Positions 18,041-34,698 of a stretch of 42,558 nucleotides of DNA are shown in pieces. The notes under the pieces were generated by a model. It was not told the origin of the DNA. It saw only the letters and a program-made list of their open reading frames with translations, and made no database searches. How positions within the stretch are numbered: the stretch's first letter is position 1; every line of letters starts with the position of its first letter. Origin of the DNA: Clostridiaceae bacterium (lineage in GTDB: Bacteria > Bacillota > Clostridia > DSM-8532); contig JAAYFY010000049.1 of the NCBI GenBank assembly GCA_012728015.1, forward strand, positions 1 to 42,558, written 5' to 3'. The translations under genes and the position numbers were made by a program.

Positions 18041-18952
18041 ATGCACGGGATACTCAACATAAACAAGCCCTCCGGCATGACCTCTTTTGCAGTCATCCGC
18101 AAGCTGAGGGGAATTTTAAAGATCAGGAAAATCGGACATGCCGGCACCCTTGACCCTGGCGCGACTGGGGTGCTTCCTGTTTGCATTGGAAAGGCAACCA
18201 AAGTCATAGAGTTCCTCATGGAAAAGGACAAGTCATACCATGTGGTTATGAGACTGGGGATTGAAACCGATACCCAGGACGCCTCGGGTGAGATACTGTC
18301 CAGAAGGATTGTCGCAAGTACCGATGAAGAGATAGCGGAGGTCATTTTTTCCTTTGTGGGGGATATCATGCAGATACCGCCCATGTACTCGGCCGTCCGC
18401 GTAGACGGCAAAAGGCTGTACGAATTTGCCCGCAGGGGTGTTGAGATTGAGCGCAAACCCCGTCCGGTGACAATTAAGACCATAGAAAACCTGAGAATAA
18501 TGAGGGAAAGTGAGGAAGTCCGGGCCTGCTTCCATGTTACCTGCTCAAGGGGGACATACGTCAGGACCCTCTGTGCCGATATCGGCTCCAGGCTGGGCTG
18601 CGGCGGGCATATGGAATCCCTGGTAAGGACCAGGGCAGGCCCGTTCCGCCTGGAAGACGCCATCACCCTTGAGGAAGTGGAGGAGCGCGCCGATGACGGT
18701 ACTCTGCAGGATGTTGTCATCGGGATGGATATGGCACTGGCTGAATTTCCGGGACTTACGGTGGCAGGGGACCAGGCCGTAAGGCTTGGAAACGGGATGG
18801 CTGTCCCATGCCCCGTTCCCCCGGTCGAGGGCGGGGGCCTGGTCAGGGTATACCATGAAGACCAAAGCCTTATAGCAATAGGAAGGATTATCAACCGGGG
18901 CGGGAAAGCGATGCTCAAGAGTCAAAAATGGCTGGGAGGACAATCAAAGTGA
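18041..18952 (+). CDS. truB: tRNA pseudouridine(55) synthase TruB
   Basis: The 303-residue enzyme makes pseudouridine 55 in the T loop of tRNAs. The catalytic Asp is D38 in HAGTLDPGATGVL. NINKPSGMTS at the N-terminus and SRGTYVRTLCADIG in the core are family signatures. The C-terminal part (about 235-303) resembles the TruB C-terminal RNA-binding domain. It starts immediately after the nrnA stop and its own stop overlaps the ribF GTG, so the three are translationally coupled. Confidence 0.95.
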   Translation: MHGILNINKPSGMTSFAVIRKLRGILKIRKIGHAGTLDPGATGVLPVCIGKATKVIEFLMEKDKSYHVVMRLGIETDTQDASGEILSRRIVASTDEEIAEVIFSFVGDIMQIPPMYSAVRVDGKRLYEFARRGVEIERKPRPVTIKTIENLRIMRESEEVRACFHVTCSRGTYVRTLCADIGSRLGCGGHMESLVRTRAGPFRLEDAITLEEVEERADDGTLQDVVIGMDMALAEFPGLTVAGDQAVRLGNGMAVPCPVPPVEGGGLVRVYHEDQSLIAIGRIINRGGKAMLKSQKWLGGQSK

Positions 18953-19884
18953 AGGTCATAACACGGACTGGCCAACTGGATATGGGTATGCCCACTGGTG
19001 TCGGGCTGGGCAGTTTTGACGGACTTCATATAGGCCACATGGCCCTGATCGGGACGCTTATCGGCGAATGCCGCCTTAATGGGCTTGCCTCGGTGGTCTA
19101 TACCTTCAGGAAGCATCCGGATAACATCCTCAGGAAGAGCCTGGTCAATCCGCTTATCACGTCCATAGATCAGAAGACAAGGATACTGGAAGCCCATGAT
19201 ATCGACTGGCTGTTTTACCAGGATTTCGATGAGGACTTCTCGCGTCTTTCACCTGAGGCGTTTGTAAAGGATATACTGGTTGACGGTCTGAATATGAAGC
19301 TTGCCGTTGTTGGGTTCAACTACCGTTTCGGCTATATGGGCAAGGGGGATTCCGAGTTTATGAAGCGGCTGGGCGACAGGTACGGCTTCAGGGTTATCGT
19401 GATCCCGCCTGTCCGGGTGAAATCCGAGGTTGTGAGCAGTACTCTCATACGGCAGTATATTGGAAAGGGGAAGATGGAGAGGGTATTTCAGCTCCTGGGG
19501 CGTCACTTCTCGCTGAAAGGCACGGTTGTTGACGGCCGCAGGATGGGGCGCACCCTGGGCTTCCCGACAGCCAACATCATAGCTGACCCGGGGATGGTGG
19601 TTCCGGCCAATGGTGTTTATATCACCAAGACCTTCCTTAACGGCAGGTGGATGAACAGCGTTACCAATGTGGGATACGCGCCCACCGTGAGGGGCACGGA
19701 AGGCAGGTTCAGCATAGAAACACATATCCTGGACTACCATGAGGACCTTTATGGCAGCGAAATAGAGGTCTGCTTCATCAAAAAGCTCAGGGGCGAGAAG
19801 CGCTTTGAGAGCGTTGAGGCGCTGAAGAAGCAGATCCGGGAGGATATTGAAAGCGCCGCACGCTACTGGGAAGTGTACAGGTAA
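18949..19884 (+). CDS. ribF: Bifunctional riboflavin kinase / FAD synthetase RibF
   Basis: The 311-residue enzyme converts riboflavin to FMN and then FAD. The N-terminal nucleotidyltransferase domain has GLGSFDGLHIGH and VSSTLIR. The C-terminal flavokinase domain has RTLGFPTANI and NVGYAPT. GTG 18949 overlaps the truB stop (GTGA) and has GGGAGGA eight bases upstream. An ATG at 18928 inside truB is less likely. The usual downstream rpsO-pnp pair is absent; the next gene is a penicillin-binding protein. Confidence 0.94.
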   Translation: MKVITRTGQLDMGMPTGVGLGSFDGLHIGHMALIGTLIGECRLNGLASVVYTFRKHPDNILRKSLVNPLITSIDQKTRILEAHDIDWLFYQDFDEDFSRLSPEAFVKDILVDGLNMKLAVVGFNYRFGYMGKGDSEFMKRLGDRYGFRVIVIPPVRVKSEVVSSTLIRQYIGKGKMERVFQLLGRHFSLKGTVVDGRRMGRTLGFPTANIIADPGMVVPANGVYITKTFLNGRWMNSVTNVGYAPTVRGTEGRFSIETHILDYHEDLYGSEIEVCFIKKLRGEKRFESVEALKKQIREDIESAARYWEVYR

Positions 19885-19973
19885 AGGATGTACCGCTGCA
19901 TGCACCCAGCGCACATATGGCGGGATCGCACGCAATACGGCGATTGCCGGGCACCGTGGTGAAGCTTATTAAG

Positions 19974-20030
19974 ACGCGTGGTTTAGGGAATACTCACATG
20001 ATGGGAGAGTGTTGCCATGAAACCACGCGT
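19974..20030 (+). promoter_or_regulatory. Start-codon hairpin / possible attenuator of the PBP gene
   Basis: ACGCGTGGTTT (19974-19984) and AAACCACGCGT (20020-20030) are perfect 11-base inverted arms. The ribosome-binding site (GGGAGAG, 20003-20009) and most of the ATG (20017-20019) lie in the 35-base loop. The 3' arm covers codons 2 to 5. A run of five T (20030-20034) follows, so the structure also has the form of an intrinsic terminator inside the coding sequence. Confidence 0.55.
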
Positions 20031-21669
20031 TTTTCTTATCAAATACCTGTATTTGATCCTGCTGATTTTTCTTGCTTTCAGGGTGTTTTCAATCCAGGCA
20101 TCAAGGGGCCGCGAGTATTCACAGGCGGCGGCGGTCCAGCGATGGAGAAATACAAAGGTTTATACCGAGCGCGGGGACATCCTGGACAGGAACGGCATAA
20201 GGTTCACAAGCCGCAGTAAGCAATCTCTTGCCGTCGTCCTTCCGGCAGATCTCCTGGGAGAACCGTCCGCACTGGGTTGGGCATCCGATCTTCTCGGCAA
20301 GCCTGTGAGCGAACTGGAGAGGGAAGTCGCAAAGAGTTATCTGCCCTATGCCGTCAGGATATCGGACGAGCAGGCTGATGCCATTATGGATGCCGGCATA
20401 AGCGGCATTTGCATAGTGGAGGTTCCCGTACGGAACTCGAAGGATATGCCGGCTCCGCATATCATCGGGTACGTTGATGAAAAAGGTGAGAATGGGCTGT
20501 CCGGTATCGAGAAGGCATACCAGCATACGTTGAAAAACGGTGGCGGCGTTTTTGCCGGGATACTGGCCGATGCGGGCAATACGGCCATGGAGCAGTTTGG
20601 GTACCGCATCCTGGACACGACAAGAGTGAGCAGATTAAATATCAAGACAACGCTGGACTACCATATGCAGGAGATTGTGGAGGAAACCATGGACATGATG
20701 GTTGACCGGGGGGCTGTCGTCATAGTGGATATACTTAACGGAGACCTCTTGGCCATGGCTTCACGTCCCGCTTTCAACCCCGCCAATGTGAACAGCGCCC
20801 TTATTGATGCAAACCAGCCCCTGTTCAACCGTGCATTGGGCGAGTACATCCCAGGCTCCATCTTCAAGATCGTCACCGCGGCGGCGGCGCTGGAAAAAGG
20901 AATTTCTCCCGAAACAACCTTCGACTGCCCGGGCTATGTCATGATGGGTGACCTGATGATGAAATGCTGGAACTATGACAAAGGCGGCCATGGGACCTTG
21001 AATATGGCCCAGGGCTTTGCCCAGTCCTGCAACTCCTATTTTATCGGACTGGGCCAGCTGGTCGGCAAAAGGGACCTCATTGCCATGGCCGAAAGGCTCG
21101 GCCTGGGCTGCAGAACAGGGCTGTACCTCCAGGGCATAGACGAGCCCTATGGACTTCTTCCCAACACCATGGGCTATACCTCGTCCGCCGAAATTGCCAA
21201 CCTGGCCATCGGCCAGGGGGGTCTGCTCATTTCCCCGGTCCAGGCGGCCAGGCTGGTGTCTGCAATAGCCAATGGCGGAATCCTCAACCAGATCTCGGTT
21301 ATAGACTGCGTCGTTAACGACCGGGGCGAAAAGATCCGCAATATTAAATCCCAAGCCTGGGAGAGGGTGCTGAAAAAAGAGACGGCCGAAGCCCTCCATA
21401 AGATGATGAAGATGACAGTGGAGGATGGTACTGGGCGGCTGGCCGATATCAATGGTTTCGGCGGAAGCGCGGGGAAAACCGGCAGCGCTGAAACCGGATG
21501 GGTTCAGGATAACAGGGATATCCTGCATGCCTGGTTCGTGGGGTATTTCCCGGTTGTCAACCCGCGGTACGCCATGTGTGTTTTCATTGAGGACGGCACC
21601 AGCGGCGGTAAAAGTGCCGCCCCGGTATTCGCCGAAATCTCTGCCAGGATACTGGATCTGGGATACTGA
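20017..21669 (+). CDS. Class B penicillin-binding protein (peptidoglycan D,D-transpeptidase)
   Basis: The 550-residue protein has one N-terminal membrane helix (about 8-26) and an extracytoplasmic body. A short PBP-dimer region begins at RGDILDRNG (52-60). The transpeptidase domain has SxxK as SIFK (S281, K284), SxN as SCN (336-338) and KTG at 486-488. There are no PASTA repeats, so it is not a typical SpoVD or PBP2x. The compact size recalls clostridial FtsI/PBP2-like proteins used in elongation or sporulation. It cross-links peptidoglycan. The ATG at 20017 is overlapped by an inverted repeat that could limit expression. It is encoded alone after ribF. Confidence 0.9.
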   Translation: MKPRVFLIKYLYLILLIFLAFRVFSIQASRGREYSQAAAVQRWRNTKVYTERGDILDRNGIRFTSRSKQSLAVVLPADLLGEPSALGWASDLLGKPVSELEREVAKSYLPYAVRISDEQADAIMDAGISGICIVEVPVRNSKDMPAPHIIGYVDEKGENGLSGIEKAYQHTLKNGGGVFAGILADAGNTAMEQFGYRILDTTRVSRLNIKTTLDYHMQEIVEETMDMMVDRGAVVIVDILNGDLLAMASRPAFNPANVNSALIDANQPLFNRALGEYIPGSIFKIVTAAAALEKGISPETTFDCPGYVMMGDLMMKCWNYDKGGHGTLNMAQGFAQSCNSYFIGLGQLVGKRDLIAMAERLGLGCRTGLYLQGIDEPYGLLPNTMGYTSSAEIANLAIGQGGLLISPVQAARLVSAIANGGILNQISVIDCVVNDRGEKIRNIKSQAWERVLKKETAEALHKMMKMTVEDGTGRLADINGFGGSAGKTGSAETGWVQDNRDILHAWFVGYFPVVNPRYAMCVFIEDGTSGGKSAAPVFAEISARILDLGY

Positions 21670-21765: not shown

Positions 21766-21860
21766 ACTATGAAGTTATTTCATATCAGACAACGGGGAAC
21801 TTGTTCCGTATAGACTAATAGAAAGCGTGAAAAGGAGTTTTGAGAAACAGGGGTGTCTGT

Positions 21861-22304
21861 ATGGAAAGAAGATTCTACAGGAAAATAAATGACAGGATAA
21901 TCGGGGGTGTGTGTTCGGGTCTGGCCGACTATATCGGCATGGATAAATCCATTGTCAGGCTTCTGGCCCTTGTAGCCATCATAGCCAGCGGCGTATTTCC
22001 CGGCCTTATCGCGTATTTCATATGCGTCCTCATCGTTCCCTATGATGTCCAGGCATATCAGGGCCCGCGCTATGACAGCCATGAGCAAAGCCAGGGCTAT
22101 TATGAAGAAGGTCATTATAAGTATGGGCATGGTGAGCCCTGGAGAGAGGGAAACTCAAGGAAGTTCTTTGGAATCCTGCTGATCGCGGCGGGCGTTTTCC
22201 TCCTTGCGAGGTTGTTCTTCGATTGGCTCAACTGGCGATATGTTTTTGCGGGCTTGCTGGTCATCGGCGGTATTTATATGTTGTTTGGCAGCAAAAGGCC
22301 ATGA
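21861..22304 (+). CDS. PspC-domain membrane protein
   Basis: The protein has 147 residues. The PspC domain (1-60) starts RFYRKINDRIIGGVCSGLADYIGMD and includes a membrane helix (about 36-57) ending FICVLIVPYD. A His/Tyr/Glu-rich soluble stretch (about 65-100) is followed by two more hydrophobic segments (about 105-145). ATG 21861 has GGGGTG six bases upstream; a TTG at 21840 is too close to its AAGGAG. PspC proteins link to envelope-stress responses. It is paired with the LiaF-like gene 30 bases downstream, and the two probably form one operon. Confidence 0.85.
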   Translation: MERRFYRKINDRIIGGVCSGLADYIGMDKSIVRLLALVAIIASGVFPGLIAYFICVLIVPYDVQAYQGPRYDSHEQSQGYYEEGHYKYGHGEPWREGNSRKFFGILLIAAGVFLLARLFFDWLNWRYVFAGLLVIGGIYMLFGSKRP

Positions 22305-22334
22305 GTATTCTAATAGCCGGAAAGGGTGGATAAT

Positions 22335-23207
22335 ATGAGAAAAACGCATGTAATATGGGGATTGTTGCTGATTATAACCGGCATCGTATGGATCCTGGCA
22401 TCTACCGGTACCATTCAGCTAAGCATAGACATCATTGGCGCTATTAGCACATTGTGGCCTATCTTTATCGTGGCGGCAGGCGTCACGATCCTTCTGAAGA
22501 AGGAAGCCCATACAATGCGGGCTGTCGTATGGATTATTGCCGCTGCCATTGTTATCGGGTACGGAATATTCCTTGGCAGTGACCACCACGGCATTGCGGG
22601 GGGCGATGTCCATGTCTTTGAAATGAGAGACGGCATGGAGCATGCCAGGCTGGAAGTCAACATCGGGGCGGCAGATCTTCGCATAGGCGCTTCCGACTCG
22701 GTTATGGCACGGGTGAATTCCGACATAAAAGGCCTGAGGTACAATTACAACGGCGGAAGGAACGGCGGCATAGTCTTTTCCCAGGAGTGGAAGCCTTTAA
22801 AGATAGATTCGGGGAAGAATTTTTCAGCCGACCTGAATAAGAACATCATGTGGAATCTTGAGTTCAATATGGGAGCTACCGACGGAATCATCGATTTCTC
22901 AGGTTTCCCGCTGGAGAGATGCAAGTTAAACGCCGGTGCCTGCGATCTGAGGATTGTCGCGGGAAGTCTGCAGGATAATGCCGTCATAGAATGCGCTGGC
23001 GGTACGGTCAGTATCAGCATCACCATACCCGAGGGGACCGGAATCCGCATAAAGTCCGACGCCGTGGTGAACGAAATCAGCGGTAGGGGAATAACCCTCA
23101 GGAATGATGGGAGAATCTATGAATCAACAAATTATGATTCGGCAGATAAAACCATCAGCCTGAATATAAGCAGCGCGGTCACAAAAGTAACCGTGAATGT
23201 GCCCTGA
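22335..23207 (+). CDS. LiaF-like membrane protein with toast-rack type beta domain
   Basis: The protein has 290 residues. Three hydrophobic helices (about 6-26, 31-52, 60-78) resemble the DUF5668/LiaF N-terminal region. A Gly-rich beta-repeat domain (about 95-290) follows, with recurring LEVNIGAADLRIG, FNMGATDGIIDF and LNAGACDLRI units, the pattern of the toast-rack fold. ATG 22335 has AAAGGGTGG five bases upstream. Together with PspC it resembles sensor components of cell-envelope stress systems, but no two-component genes of the LiaRS type are adjacent. The role is inferred from architecture. Confidence 0.8.
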   Translation: MRKTHVIWGLLLIITGIVWILASTGTIQLSIDIIGAISTLWPIFIVAAGVTILLKKEAHTMRAVVWIIAAAIVIGYGIFLGSDHHGIAGGDVHVFEMRDGMEHARLEVNIGAADLRIGASDSVMARVNSDIKGLRYNYNGGRNGGIVFSQEWKPLKIDSGKNFSADLNKNIMWNLEFNMGATDGIIDFSGFPLERCKLNAGACDLRIVAGSLQDNAVIECAGGTVSISITIPEGTGIRIKSDAVVNEISGRGITLRNDGRIYESTNYDSADKTISLNISSAVTKVTVNVP

Positions 23208-23456: not shown

Positions 23457-24266
23457 GTGAAAGATAAGATTCGTGTTCTGGTAGCGGACGATAATGTCGC
23501 ATTTGGCATGATTATCTGCGAATTCCTGGAGAGCCAGGCCGACATCGAAGTAGCAGCAAGGGTGGAAAACGGTGAGGAAGCCATTGACATGATTGAAAAA
23601 ACCAAGCCTGATATTGTCGTGTTGGATATCATCATGCCTAGACTTGACGGACTGGGTGTGCTTACCCGCTACAAGGATGTTAGCCCGTCAGAAAAGCCTC
23701 TGTTCATCGTTCTTTCCGCTGTGGGGCAGGACAGGATCACTCAGCAAGCCCTCTCCCTGGGCGCCATCTATTACATCGTAAAACCCTTTGATCTGGGGGT
23801 TCTTGTTGAAAGGATCAGGGAATTGGTGAGGACCCACAGCCCGACCGTCCTGAGGATGGAGGGCAGTACCGTCACGCCGGCCTCACCCGTTAGAATAACA
23901 CATTCAGGCGGTGACAACGTCCAGTCGAAGATTACCCAGATCATGAGGGATGTCGGCGTACCAGCCCATATCAAGGGTTACCAGTATATGCGTGATGCCA
24001 TCATGATGGCCTTCAAGGACCGTGAGATCATCAGCGCTGTTACCAAAAGGCTGTATCCGGAGCTGGCCAAGACCCACAAAACAACCCCCAGCAGGGTTGA
24101 GCGGGCAATAAGGCATGCCATCGAAGTTGCATGGAACAGGGGAAGGGTGGATACCATCAATGACCTGTTCGGCTATACCATTAACACCCGCAAGGGTAAG
24201 CCTACCAATTCGGAATTCATAGCCATGGTGGCCGACACATTGAGGTTGAACGAGAAGAGCAGCTAA
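23457..24266 (+). CDS. spo0A: Sporulation master regulator Spo0A
   Basis: The 269-residue response regulator commits the cell to sporulation when phosphorylated. The receiver domain (about 4-125) has the acidic pair D11-D12, the phospho-acceptor D57 in VVLDIIMP, and K109 in YIVKPFD. The C-terminal DNA-binding domain (about 150-269) has the highly conserved recognition region [17 protein letters not shown]. The GTG start has AAAGGAGGT eight bases upstream. In most spore formers spoIVB lies next to spo0A; here spoIVB is about 9 kb downstream. The gene is flanked by terminators on both sides, so it is probably transcribed alone. Confidence 0.97.
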
Positions 24267-32414: not shown

Positions 32415-32596
32415 CCGCTCGATCTGCACATTTCGCATACAACTTCATCTGCTCCTGCGGAGTCATTCGAGACAGAAACAGCACGTCTTATGCACGCTAT
32501 TGCGGACTATAAAATCTTATAGCTTTTGCTATTATGGGATTGCTTCGACGAGCTGATCCTCGCAATGGCAATAATAAAAACAACTGGGGGTTAATA

Positions 32597-33313
32597 ATGT
32601 CCTTCATTCCTGAAAACGCGCATCCGGCATGGTCGGATTTCCTTGACGCAAAGACAATGGAAATGCTGAAAACCATTGAGTCCTGCCTTGGAGAGGATAT
32701 ATGCCCGCAGAAGGAGAAGGTTCTGAGGTTCCTTACGGTGGACCCCGGGAAGGTCAGGGTGGTCATCCTGGGCCAGGACCCATACCCGGCGAGGGAAGCC
32801 GCAACCGGCAGGGCCTTCGAGGTGGGCTCGCTGAAATGTTGGAACCAGCCCTTCAGGCAGGTTTCCCTGAAGAACATCGTGCGCCTGATATATAAGACCT
32901 ATAATAATATAGAGGATTATTCCGATATCCCGAGCTTCTCGCAGATACTGCGGGAGATTGAAGACGGAAGGTTTCCCATTGAGTCTCCCGAAAGGATATT
33001 TGAATCCTGGGAGCGCCAGGGCGTGCTGCTGTTGAACGTATGGCTGAGCACCTGTGTATCGGAACCCGGCGCTCACCGGCTTATCTGGCATCCTTTTTCT
33101 GTAAGGCTTCTGAACTGGCTTTCAACAAATTACCCCGGCCTTACCTGGTTCCTCTGGGGTAAAAACGTCATATCCTACAAGTCTGAAATCCTGTCGGGCA
33201 CGATCATGGAGTCAAGGCACCCAATGATGTGCTCATCCGCTTATCCCGACGATTTCTTAAGGTCGGACTGCTTTAAGAGCACCATGCGAATCATCAATTG
33301 GACCGGAAGATAA
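32597..33313 (+). CDS. ung: Uracil-DNA glycosylase, family 1 type, with altered motifs
   Basis: The 238-residue enzyme removes uracil from DNA. The catalytic water-activating motif is GQDPYP (59-64, D61), where family 1 enzymes usually have GQDPYH. LLLNVWLS matches the LLLN segment. The DNA-intercalating loop, normally HPSPLSA, here reads HPMMCSSA with the key His kept (H208). ATG 32597 has GGGGG upstream. A longer frame from 32534 lies in repeat sequence. It is probably active, but the loop differs clearly from the classic form. It follows another DNA repair gene, uvrB, across a repeat block. Confidence 0.82.
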   Translation: MSFIPENAHPAWSDFLDAKTMEMLKTIESCLGEDICPQKEKVLRFLTVDPGKVRVVILGQDPYPAREAATGRAFEVGSLKCWNQPFRQVSLKNIVRLIYKTYNNIEDYSDIPSFSQILREIEDGRFPIESPERIFESWERQGVLLLNVWLSTCVSEPGAHRLIWHPFSVRLLNWLSTNYPGLTWFLWGKNVISYKSEILSGTIMESRHPMMCSSAYPDDFLRSDCFKSTMRIINWTGR

Positions 33314-33390
33314 TGGAGTAACTGGAAGGCATAAGAGTCACGCGCGAGGGTTACCTTATGAAGTGAGATTTCATATGGAGCGTGATCCTT

Positions 33391-34698
33391 TTGCTGAAAA
33401 GAAAATGGCTTCTTTTATCTTTTTTTATTTTATCTCTTATTTTGGCCGTAGTATACGCGGTGACCCTCTTTGTCCTGCCAGGACACATTACGCTGCTTGC
33501 TGGTGAGGATTACACGATCTCCATACGGTCGCCCCTGTTTCTCCAGGCGTCTACCGACAGCAGCCTCCTGAAGCTGACATACATGGAACATGAAGCCATC
33601 CATGCCTTCGAAAGGCCTTACAGGATCGTATGCACTGGGGAGGGCCAGGCGGAAATGGAACTTAAAGTGCTGGGTTTTATCCCGATCAAGACCATTGAGG
33701 TCCGGGCCATACCCAGCCAGAAGGTCCTTGTCTGCGGGTTTCCCATCGGGGTGAGGCTGAAGACCAGCGGTGTTATGATCATCAATGTTTCCGGCGTTAT
33801 ACTGGATGACGGCAACAGGGTATCACCGGCTGAAAAAGCCGGGCTGCTGGCGGGTGACATCATCATCAGGGCCGGCGGGAAGAACATTGGAAGCATAAAG
33901 GATCTTATTTCGGTAATTGAAAACTCCGAAGGAAACGATATTCCATTGACATATATGCGCCAGAACGTCAGATACGATACTTCGGTCAAGCCTATAAGAG
34001 CGGCTGAGGATACGCAATATCGCATTGGCATCTGGGTGAGGGACAGCTCCGCGGGTATAGGAACGCTGACATTTATTGATCCCGAGAGCAATGTATATGG
34101 CGCGTTGGGCCATGGCATAAGCGATATTGACACCGGCGCCCTGCTTCAGGTGGGTTCCGGCCAGTTGCTGAGATCCAGCATAAAGAGCATCAAGAAAGGG
34201 ATCAAGGGCGTGCCCGGTGAACTGGAGGGTGACTTTTTGGCGAAGAATCAGGTTATCGGCGATATTGAACTGAACACCAACTTCGGGATTTACGGCAGGC
34301 TGTTGGTCAGCTTCATCCATTCCAGGTGCCGTCCTTTGCCAATTGGATCCCATAGTCTTGTCCATACGGGAAAGGCCTCCATCCTGGCCTGCATCCGTGA
34401 TGACAAGGTGGAGGAGTTTGACATAGAGATAGAAAAGGTTGCCAGACGGGATTTGGGAAGCACCAAGAACATGGTAATCAGGATTACCGACGAAAGGCTT
34501 TTGAATGCCACCGGCGGCATTGTCCAGGGAATGTCAGGAAGCCCCATAATCCAGGACGGGCGGCTTGTCGGGGCCGTGACCCATGTCTTTATCAACGACC
34601 CTGAGAGGGGCTACGGTGTTTTCATAGAATCCATGCTGCAGCAGGCCAAATCCGTCGCGGCAAAAAGATATTCCCTGCCCGAAGCATCCGGGTATTAG
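33391..34698 (+). CDS. spoIVB: SpoIVB peptidase (S55 family)
   Basis: The forespore-secreted serine peptidase of 435 residues triggers pro-sigma-K processing in the mother cell by cutting SpoIVFA. One N-terminal membrane helix (about 7-28) leads to a beta-rich region, then a PDZ domain (about 115-195; AEKAGLLAGDIIIRAGGK). The S55 domain has the catalytic His in ALGHGISDIDTG (H241) and Ser in GMSGSP (S382). The start is uncertain: TTG 33391 suits the GGAGCGTGATC ribosome-binding sequence, while GTG 33382 lies within it. It is followed by a DUF3842 gene, not by spo0A, which is its usual neighbour. Confidence 0.93.
   Translation: MLKRKWLLLSFFILSLILAVVYAVTLFVLPGHITLLAGEDYTISIRSPLFLQASTDSSLLKLTYMEHEAIHAFERPYRIVCTGEGQAEMELKVLGFIPIKTIEVRAIPSQKVLVCGFPIGVRLKTSGVMIINVSGVILDDGNRVSPAEKAGLLAGDIIIRAGGKNIGSIKDLISVIENSEGNDIPLTYMRQNVRYDTSVKPIRAAEDTQYRIGIWVRDSSAGIGTLTFIDPESNVYGALGHGISDIDTGALLQVGSGQLLRSSIKSIKKGIKGVPGELEGDFLAKNQVIGDIELNTNFGIYGRLLVSFIHSRCRPLPIGSHSLVHTGKASILACIRDDKVEEFDIEIEKVARRDLGSTKNMVIRITDERLLNATGGIVQGMSGSPIIQDGRLVGAVTHVFINDPERGYGVFIESMLQQAKSVAAKRYSLPEASGY

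Follow-up and report, generated by a model that had tools for sequence, protein, structure and literature searches.

Two described systems hide a translation start in one RNA and free it in another. In Bacillus subtilis, RNA reading through from PspoIIG into sigG (spoIIIG) is predicted to form a large hairpin (20+ bp) that blocks its translation and cannot form in RNA made from PsigG; the idea was first proposed in 1988, as cited in the same source (PMC5942855, available in part). A small hairpin of 5 bp at the sigG ribosome-binding site (RBS) does form in the forespore transcript, and dampens translation 2-4-fold (PMC5942855). In phage T4, the early long RNA of gene e, and likewise of soc, 49 and I-TevI, hides the Shine-Dalgarno sequence (SD) and AUG, while late promoters start RNA that lacks the 5' strand and is translated; for gene e the fold cuts lysozyme synthesis 100-fold (PMC3014915, available in part). 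Here we analyse a hairpin at the translation start of a class B penicillin-binding protein (PBP) gene of Clostridiaceae bacterium, in a stretch of 42,558 nucleotides (assembly GCA_012728015.1, contig JAAYFY010000049.1, positions 1 to 42,558 of the forward strand), hereafter the window. We consider it likely that this hairpin masks the start of a forespore gene in read-through RNA, and is bypassed by a forespore promoter lying inside it.

During growth, read-through RNA from the ribF operon would contain both arms and fold, burying the start codon together with the sequence around it, so that no PBP would be made. During sporulation, polymerase carrying sigma-F (possibly sigma-G) would use a promoter in which the 5' arm, as DNA, forms the spacer between -35 and -10. 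The forespore RNA would then begin between the arms and, lacking the 5' arm, would stay unfolded and be translated.

The hairpin and the candidate promoter at the PBP start

The preliminary description of this DNA had reported perfect 11-base arms around the RBS and ATG, with codons 2-5 of the PBP gene as the 3' arm, and both coordinates and folding bear this out (Table 1). The outer stem pairs over 11 bp with no mismatch and encloses the SD GGGAG (about 20003-20007) and the ATG (20017-20019); an inner stem of 7 bp had been overlooked. The hairpin has a minimum free energy of -28.5 kcal/mol and a z-score of -5.56, with 0/200 shuffled sequences equally stable. Perfect 11-base arms with a loop of 3-60 occur four times in the window (two of these matches being one site), compared with 0.40 times on average in 40 Markov sequences; because the Markov maximum is also 4, the count by itself is not decisive.

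The energy needed to open positions -14 to +12 around the PBP start, folded with 120 nt of upstream sequence, is 26.7 kcal/mol, which ranks first among the 36 putative genes of the window (second-highest 16.3, mean 9.5, standard deviation 4.4 kcal/mol). The 236-base region 19885-20120 matches its own genome only at itself, and a repeat or mobile element was rejected on that count. At the hairpin no match to an Rfam family attains the gathering score, the window matches at that threshold being RNase P and one tRNA elsewhere, and a riboswitch or known leader RNA family was rejected on this ground.

Promoters of sigma-F/G type consist of a GYATA -35, a spacer of 14-17 nt and a GG-containing -10 (GYATA...GGNNANANT-like). 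The window -10, GGGAATACTC, fits this type and sits between the arms; RNA from this promoter would begin near 20001-20003, without the 5' arm. In many relatives a forespore-type -10 follows the 5' arm, which occupies the spacer, as in GCATA-N15-GGAAAAACTT (locus L013), GTATA-N15-GGAAAAATTA (L046) and GTATA-N15-GGGAAAAATA (L055). Scored against this consensus, the best candidate reaches at least 16 in 46/69 PBP loci, and 24/69 carry an exact GYATA and GGNNANANT. The mother-cell control spoIVA gave 0/30 on both counts, while sigG reached 13/30 and 12/30 and spoIVB 15/30 and 0/30, respectively. Sigma-F promoters carry a conserved G upstream of the -10 (PMC3789822, available in part).

The gene itself points in the same direction. 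In a one-way search of PDB its best match, 7rd0 (E 9.5e-59), comes ahead of SpoVD 7rcz (4.9e-44), and against the NCBIfam models TIGR03423 and TIGR02214 it scores under the cut-off. Structure 7rd0 is Clostridioides difficile PBP3 (PMC9334274), whose gene in strain 630, pbp3 or cd630_12290, is made under sporulation conditions in a Spo0A-dependent manner (PMC12713402). CD1229, by its gene number presumably the same gene, is listed among sigma-F regulon genes and assigned a sigma-F promoter (PMC3789822; all three sources available in part). A sigma-F promoter is therefore expected for the window PBP gene, and motif and C. difficile pbp3 together suggest the assignment of the sigma factor. For this locus we infer the start site, the read-through RNA and the translational effect.

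By eye, the translation of the window PBP (20017-21669) seems to have a Cys/Cys/His/SCN pattern. Such a pattern is reported as a Zn-binding site for PBP3 and SpoVD of C. difficile (PMC9334274, in the part available). Between the PBP gene and spo0A lie genes for a PspC-domain and a LiaF-like protein (21858-23207), placing an envelope-stress pair next to a spore PBP. On the basis of gene order, B. subtilis pbpI (PBP4b) was considered as a possible counterpart. That gene is listed under sigma E, F (PMC3416734, available in part).

Pairing between promoter spacer and leader among relatives

If the hairpin is maintained as RNA pairing, its two arms should change together. We aligned four members of the window genus (G000, G003, G002 and G004; G001, near G002, was omitted). 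The structure of G000 applied to this alignment leaves 95.8% of cells paired, which 6/500 column shuffles reach, and 4/18 pairs have changed on both sides, which 15/500 shuffles reach. Each of six slid registers gave 0 pairs changed on both sides and 29-57% paired cells. At codon 3, CCA (Pro) gives way to TCA or TCG (Ser) in relatives; the upstream arm tracks this change in G004, and G002 instead has G-U in place of G-C. Other genera have differing arm sequences that are still complementary with some G-U, such as AAACACCTTTGTCTG with CAGACAAGGGTGTTT in G012 and GCACCTTTACCTG with CAGGTAAGGGTGT in G006. The preliminary description had named uncompensated change of the upstream arm as the observation that would speak against it; on checking, it was not refuted, pairs changed on both sides being found in the true register and at none of the slides, the loss in G003 described below notwithstanding. 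We conclude that the hairpin is on the whole under selection as pairing.

We then compared the spacer of each promoter with the leader downstream, picking promoters without regard to complementarity and calling a locus masked when the spacer-leader pairing energy was -11 kcal/mol or better. The energy tests cover 63/69 PBP loci in 20 groups: L066 and L067 were left out for a promoter score below 14, and L047, L050, L068 and L069 because their -10 and start are over 130 nt apart. Relatives are mostly draft assemblies with automatic promoter and start calls; visibly mis-called promoters or starts were retained (L011, L014, L024, L062), which should weaken the result. L029 has no start, and L032-L034 duplicate L003-L005. 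Kinship is treated in the permutation tests by group averaging only.

Averaged by group, matched spacers and leaders of PBP loci pair at -14.1 kcal/mol vs -8.9 when permuted, with 0/20000 permutations reaching the matched value, and 45/63 loci in 15/20 groups are masked. Complementarity to the initiation region peaks in register, at -13.0 at the spacer compared with -6.6 to -7.8 at ten upstream offsets. Across the 63 loci, opening -14 to +12 would cost 14.9 kcal/mol in the read-through RNA and 7.0 in the forespore-start RNA (mean difference 7.9); the cost falls by more than 5 in 46/63 and goes in the wrong direction in 4/63. For the window PBP the two values are 27.5 and 6.4. Elsewhere the difference is 7.3 for sigG, 3.7 for spoIIR, 3.8 for spoIVA, 1.6 for spoVT and 0.2 for gpr. 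The unpaired probability of the SD rises on average from 0.19 in the read-through RNA to 0.42 in the short RNA.

Other spore genes and upstream context

The window genome carries spo0A, spoIIR, gpr, spoIVA, sigG and spoIVB, and the organism is presumably a spore-forming member of Clostridia. Since exact matching of the promoter consensus is of no use genome-wide, where it gives no useful enrichment over a reversed control and was dropped, generality was tested on chosen genes.

The clearest second case is sigG (loci L165-L194), with long complementarity between spacer and RBS: matched energies average -14.8 compared with -10.9 when permuted (1/20000; 29/30 loci), 24/29 loci are masked, and complementarity peaks at -15.0 at the spacer, with -5.4 to -9.1 at upstream offsets. 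For Clostridia, the available part of PMC5942855 discusses a small sigG RBS hairpin only. The signal at spoIVB is weaker: 15/24 loci are masked, 617/20000 permutations reach the matched value (24/30 loci used), and the register value is -9.4 at the spacer compared with -6.6 to -8.8 at offsets. The window spoIVB itself (33329-33393) has the promoter-in-hairpin arrangement, starting 77 nt past a uracil-DNA glycosylase-like gene. In the window spo0A (23457-24266) and spoIVB (33391-34698) are about 9 kb apart; the two are adjacent in many spore formers.

No excess of pairing was found at five other genes, for which mask counts include only loci with a promoter score of at least 14: spoIIR (masked 1/18, swapped pairs 22/290, permutations 2868/20000; 30 loci scored), gpr (3/13, 15/142, 13225/20000; 29 loci), spoVT (0/7, 1/40, 18381/20000; 29 loci), spoVAC (2/8, 7/54, 4678/20000; 29 loci) and the mother-cell gene spoIVA (1/12, 12/110, 8996/20000; 30 loci). 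They are weak controls: convincing forespore promoters are rare among their loci, and spoVAC is probably internal to an operon. With no excess at spoIIR, gpr, spoVT and spoVAC, the mask is unsupported as a universal property of forespore genes. By eye, spoIIR L095 and spoVT L253, both from the distant genome G036, look masked, and orthologues in the window family mostly do not. Six spoVT loci (L239, L241, L242, L245, L246 and L247) share an unmasked upstream GCATA-N14-TCCAATACTA, which we take to be nearer the sigma-G type.

Masks should be found where read-through is expected. In 64/68 loci, including the window, the PBP start is preceded by the end of a plus-strand frame of 150 codons or more (plus strand only, and some of these frames may not be genes; L008 was excluded from this analysis for its N bases). 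The opening cost averages 14.6 compared with 8.7 when the upstream half is shuffled, and is the higher of the two in 63/68 loci. This excess amounts to 7.7 in the 44 loci with an upstream frame ending no more than 150 nt away and to 3.2 in the 20 loci where the distance is greater (Mann-Whitney U, p 5e-5, on loci uncorrected for phylogeny). Within the family, gap and excess cost have a rank correlation of -0.57 (n=25, p 0.003). Homology to the co-directional ribF of the window is found upstream in the family loci too; in ten class relatives the upstream gene is a U32 peptidase (6), an S41 peptidase (1), ABC/AAA (1), a serine dehydratase (1) or without match (1). The upstream gene varies among relatives, and the mask is therefore not tied to one neighbour.

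From these results one may venture a design rule of endospore formers, whose chances we put as even: forespore genes lying close behind growth-phase genes would encode, in the sigma-F/G spacer, the antisense of their own RBS region, so that a single piece of DNA would serve both as promoter and as leak-proofing that keeps read-through RNA from being translated, the two functions co-evolving.

Table 1 Positions of the PBP and spoIVB features in the window, with the basis of each call
Feature	Position	Strand	Basis and remarks
ribF, co-directional upstream gene	18928..19884	+	TIGR00083 251 bits, cut-off 184; ends 132 nt before PBP start
Candidate -35, GCTTAT, off the GYATA consensus	19964..19969	+	Putative; invariant in four aligned genus members
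Outer stem, 5' arm (ACGCGTGGTTT), within promoter spacer	19974..19984	+	Sequence and fold
Sigma-F/G-type -10, GGGAATACTC; last 7 bases (19989-19995) supply the inner stem's 5' side	19986..19995	+	General consensus and alignment
Expected forespore RNA start, about 6-7 nt past the -10 and 3' of the 5' arm	20001..20003	+	Deduced from promoter position
Ribosome-binding site GGGAGAG	20003..20009	+	Sequence
Inner stem, 3' side	20007..20013	+	Fold and covariation
Class B penicillin-binding protein, 550 aa, PBP3-like	20017..21669	+	PF00905; best PDB match 7rd0, E 9.5e-59
Outer stem, 3' arm (AAACCACGCGT), codons 2-5	20020..20030	+	Sequence, fold, covariation
Five-T run, first T in stem	20030..20034	+	Sequence
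Uracil-DNA glycosylase-like gene 5' of spoIVB	32534..33313	+	TIGR00628 102 bits, under cut-off 185.75
spoIVB forespore-type promoter, GCATA-N15-GGTTACCTTA	33329..33358	+	Fold z -2.86; 1/200 shuffles as stable
spoIVB mask, 5' arm GTCACGC, in spacer	33337..33343	+	Sequence and fold
spoIVB mask, 3' arm GCGTGAT, overlapping the SD end (ATGGAGCGTGAT)	33380..33386	+	Sequence and fold
spoIVB, TTG start assumed (alternative GTG at 33382)	33391..34698	+	TIGR02860 425.6 bits, cut-off 305.25

Competing explanations and known systems

Several results weigh against a read-through mask. At the -11 kcal/mol threshold 18/63 PBP loci are unmasked; swapped pairs reach it in 997/3620 cases (28%) for PBP, 387/736 (53%) for sigG and 190/478 (40%) for spoIVB, because CCUCC pairs with any SD, and the threshold count is not proof by itself. 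Taken locus by locus the outcome is mixed: 32/63 PBP and 9/29 sigG spacers beat at least 95% of the swapped ones, and 21/63 and 17/29, respectively, reach p 0.01 against shuffled spacers. Removal of 5' sequence cuts the opening cost in control genes too (mean 0.2-3.8 kcal/mol). The distance effect at the upstream gap was computed without phylogenetic correction, gap and opening cost are rank-correlated at -0.27 overall (p 0.03), and gap and excess cost outside the family at -0.31 (n=39, p 0.06). In the alignments, G003 has lost two outer pairs without compensation, and G021, of the same genus as G012, shares its 5' arm with G012, its 3' arm diverging in the inner portion of the stem. As for the promoter, the window -35 is off the consensus, and exact consensus matches compare with those of the reversed control as 37 vs 38 in G000 and, a modest excess, as 98 vs 73 in G012.

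Pairing of the SD alone also goes in the wrong direction in 5/5 members of the window genus: from read-through to short RNA its unpaired probability drops from 0.60 to 0.19 in the window and from 0.60 to 0.04 in G003, with smaller drops in the other three. SD-only accessibility is a poor measure in this genus, where the folding predicts the AUG and codons 2-5 as the main masked part, more than the SD; we then turned to the energy of opening the entire initiation region, and both are given.

An intrinsic terminator or attenuator could instead end the ribF-operon RNA at the PBP start, from which forespore RNA would escape by lacking the 5' arm. This is unlikely, although a T run does stand at the stem end in the window: the preliminary description had counted five T after the stem, and the run is there, yet its first T is the last stem base, so that only four follow. 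Genus g2 has a T tract at the end of the arm: seven T in L007, L008 and L009, and eight in L012 and L013, the final two of these eight supplying the TT of the assumed TTG start. A scan of 18900-20400 detected nothing terminator-like in the stretch separating ribF from the PBP gene, so nothing else was seen stopping read-through. However, at least four T in six follow the predicted arm in only 10/45 masked PBP loci and 7/24 sigG loci, a count that depends on the predicted arm end and misses L008 and L009. Many relatives keep the pairing although their loops are long (up to 104 nt) and T runs are absent, and the scan finds no terminator at the hairpin, where its loop limit of 8 would exclude the hairpin. 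With T runs not conserved, termination was rejected as the general function, and the earlier idea of an intragenic attenuator fares poorly.

A dyad in the DNA, bound by a regulator at the promoter rather than folded as RNA, appears very improbable. The inverted repeat does surround the promoter -10; however, arm sequences vary by genus and the arms stand 10-104 nt apart, which a single dyad-binding protein is unlikely to tolerate, and the 3' arm follows the SD and AUG. Still less probable is a switch on a single transcript that responds to a ligand, temperature or small RNA. Occlusion of SD and AUG alone would fit it, as would the residual fold of the short RNA, but the hairpin lacks an Rfam match at gathering score, arms and loops vary freely with no conserved aptamer-like loop by eye, and with a promoter in the loop no trigger is needed. 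The translational switch of the preliminary description thus survives in spirit: as a candidate promoter of sigma-F/G type, overlooked there, lies inside the hairpin, the switch is most likely the start point of the RNA and not a ligand or small RNA. Chance or constraint on the coding sequence is hardly credible: the close relatives come from 6/7 genera of one family, with shared ancestry inflating counts, and single loci are often not significant, but fold z-score, covariation, species match, register peak and window-wide rank of opening cost all oppose it, as does codon 3, which goes from Pro to Ser while the upstream arm follows, partly via G-U.

A read-through mask bypassed by an internal promoter would meet a common situation, in that cell-type-specific genes often sit closely behind genes transcribed at other times. 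The PBP locus, sigG and spoIVB suggest an evolvable clostridial answer, in which the promoter spacer hides the start codon of RNAs begun elsewhere. How leaky forespore expression is prevented becomes a directly testable question; mask carriers are predictable from a close co-directional neighbour, and masks offer a way of searching unculturable genomes for forespore genes.

The kind of mechanism is already known from sigG and T4 gene e, and the PBP locus is a further case. In the open-access literature, where subscription papers are mostly uncovered and sources partly available, we found the arrangement for sigG and the T4 genes, and not for pbp3, for spoIVB, or as something that recurs across clostridial forespore promoters. 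With B. subtilis sigG the locus shares the logic of a hairpin confined to read-through RNA, and clostridial sigG in relatives shows the same arrangement; unlike it, the gene here encodes a PBP (and, in the second case, is spoIVB). The 5' arm lies here specifically in the spacer between -35 and -10, with the pairing tested by covariation, while the available part of PMC5942855 describes the arrangement for sigG. Like the small sigG hairpin, the present one is predicted to occlude the RBS of a forespore gene, but it would be lost in the forespore transcript. Among solved relatives C. difficile PBP3 (cd630_12290, CD1229) is the nearest to the window PBP, and its gene is linked to sporulation. As in T4 gene e, the long RNA would be masked and RNA from an internal late promoter free; T4 uses a phage late sigma factor and not a forespore one, and the genes are unrelated.

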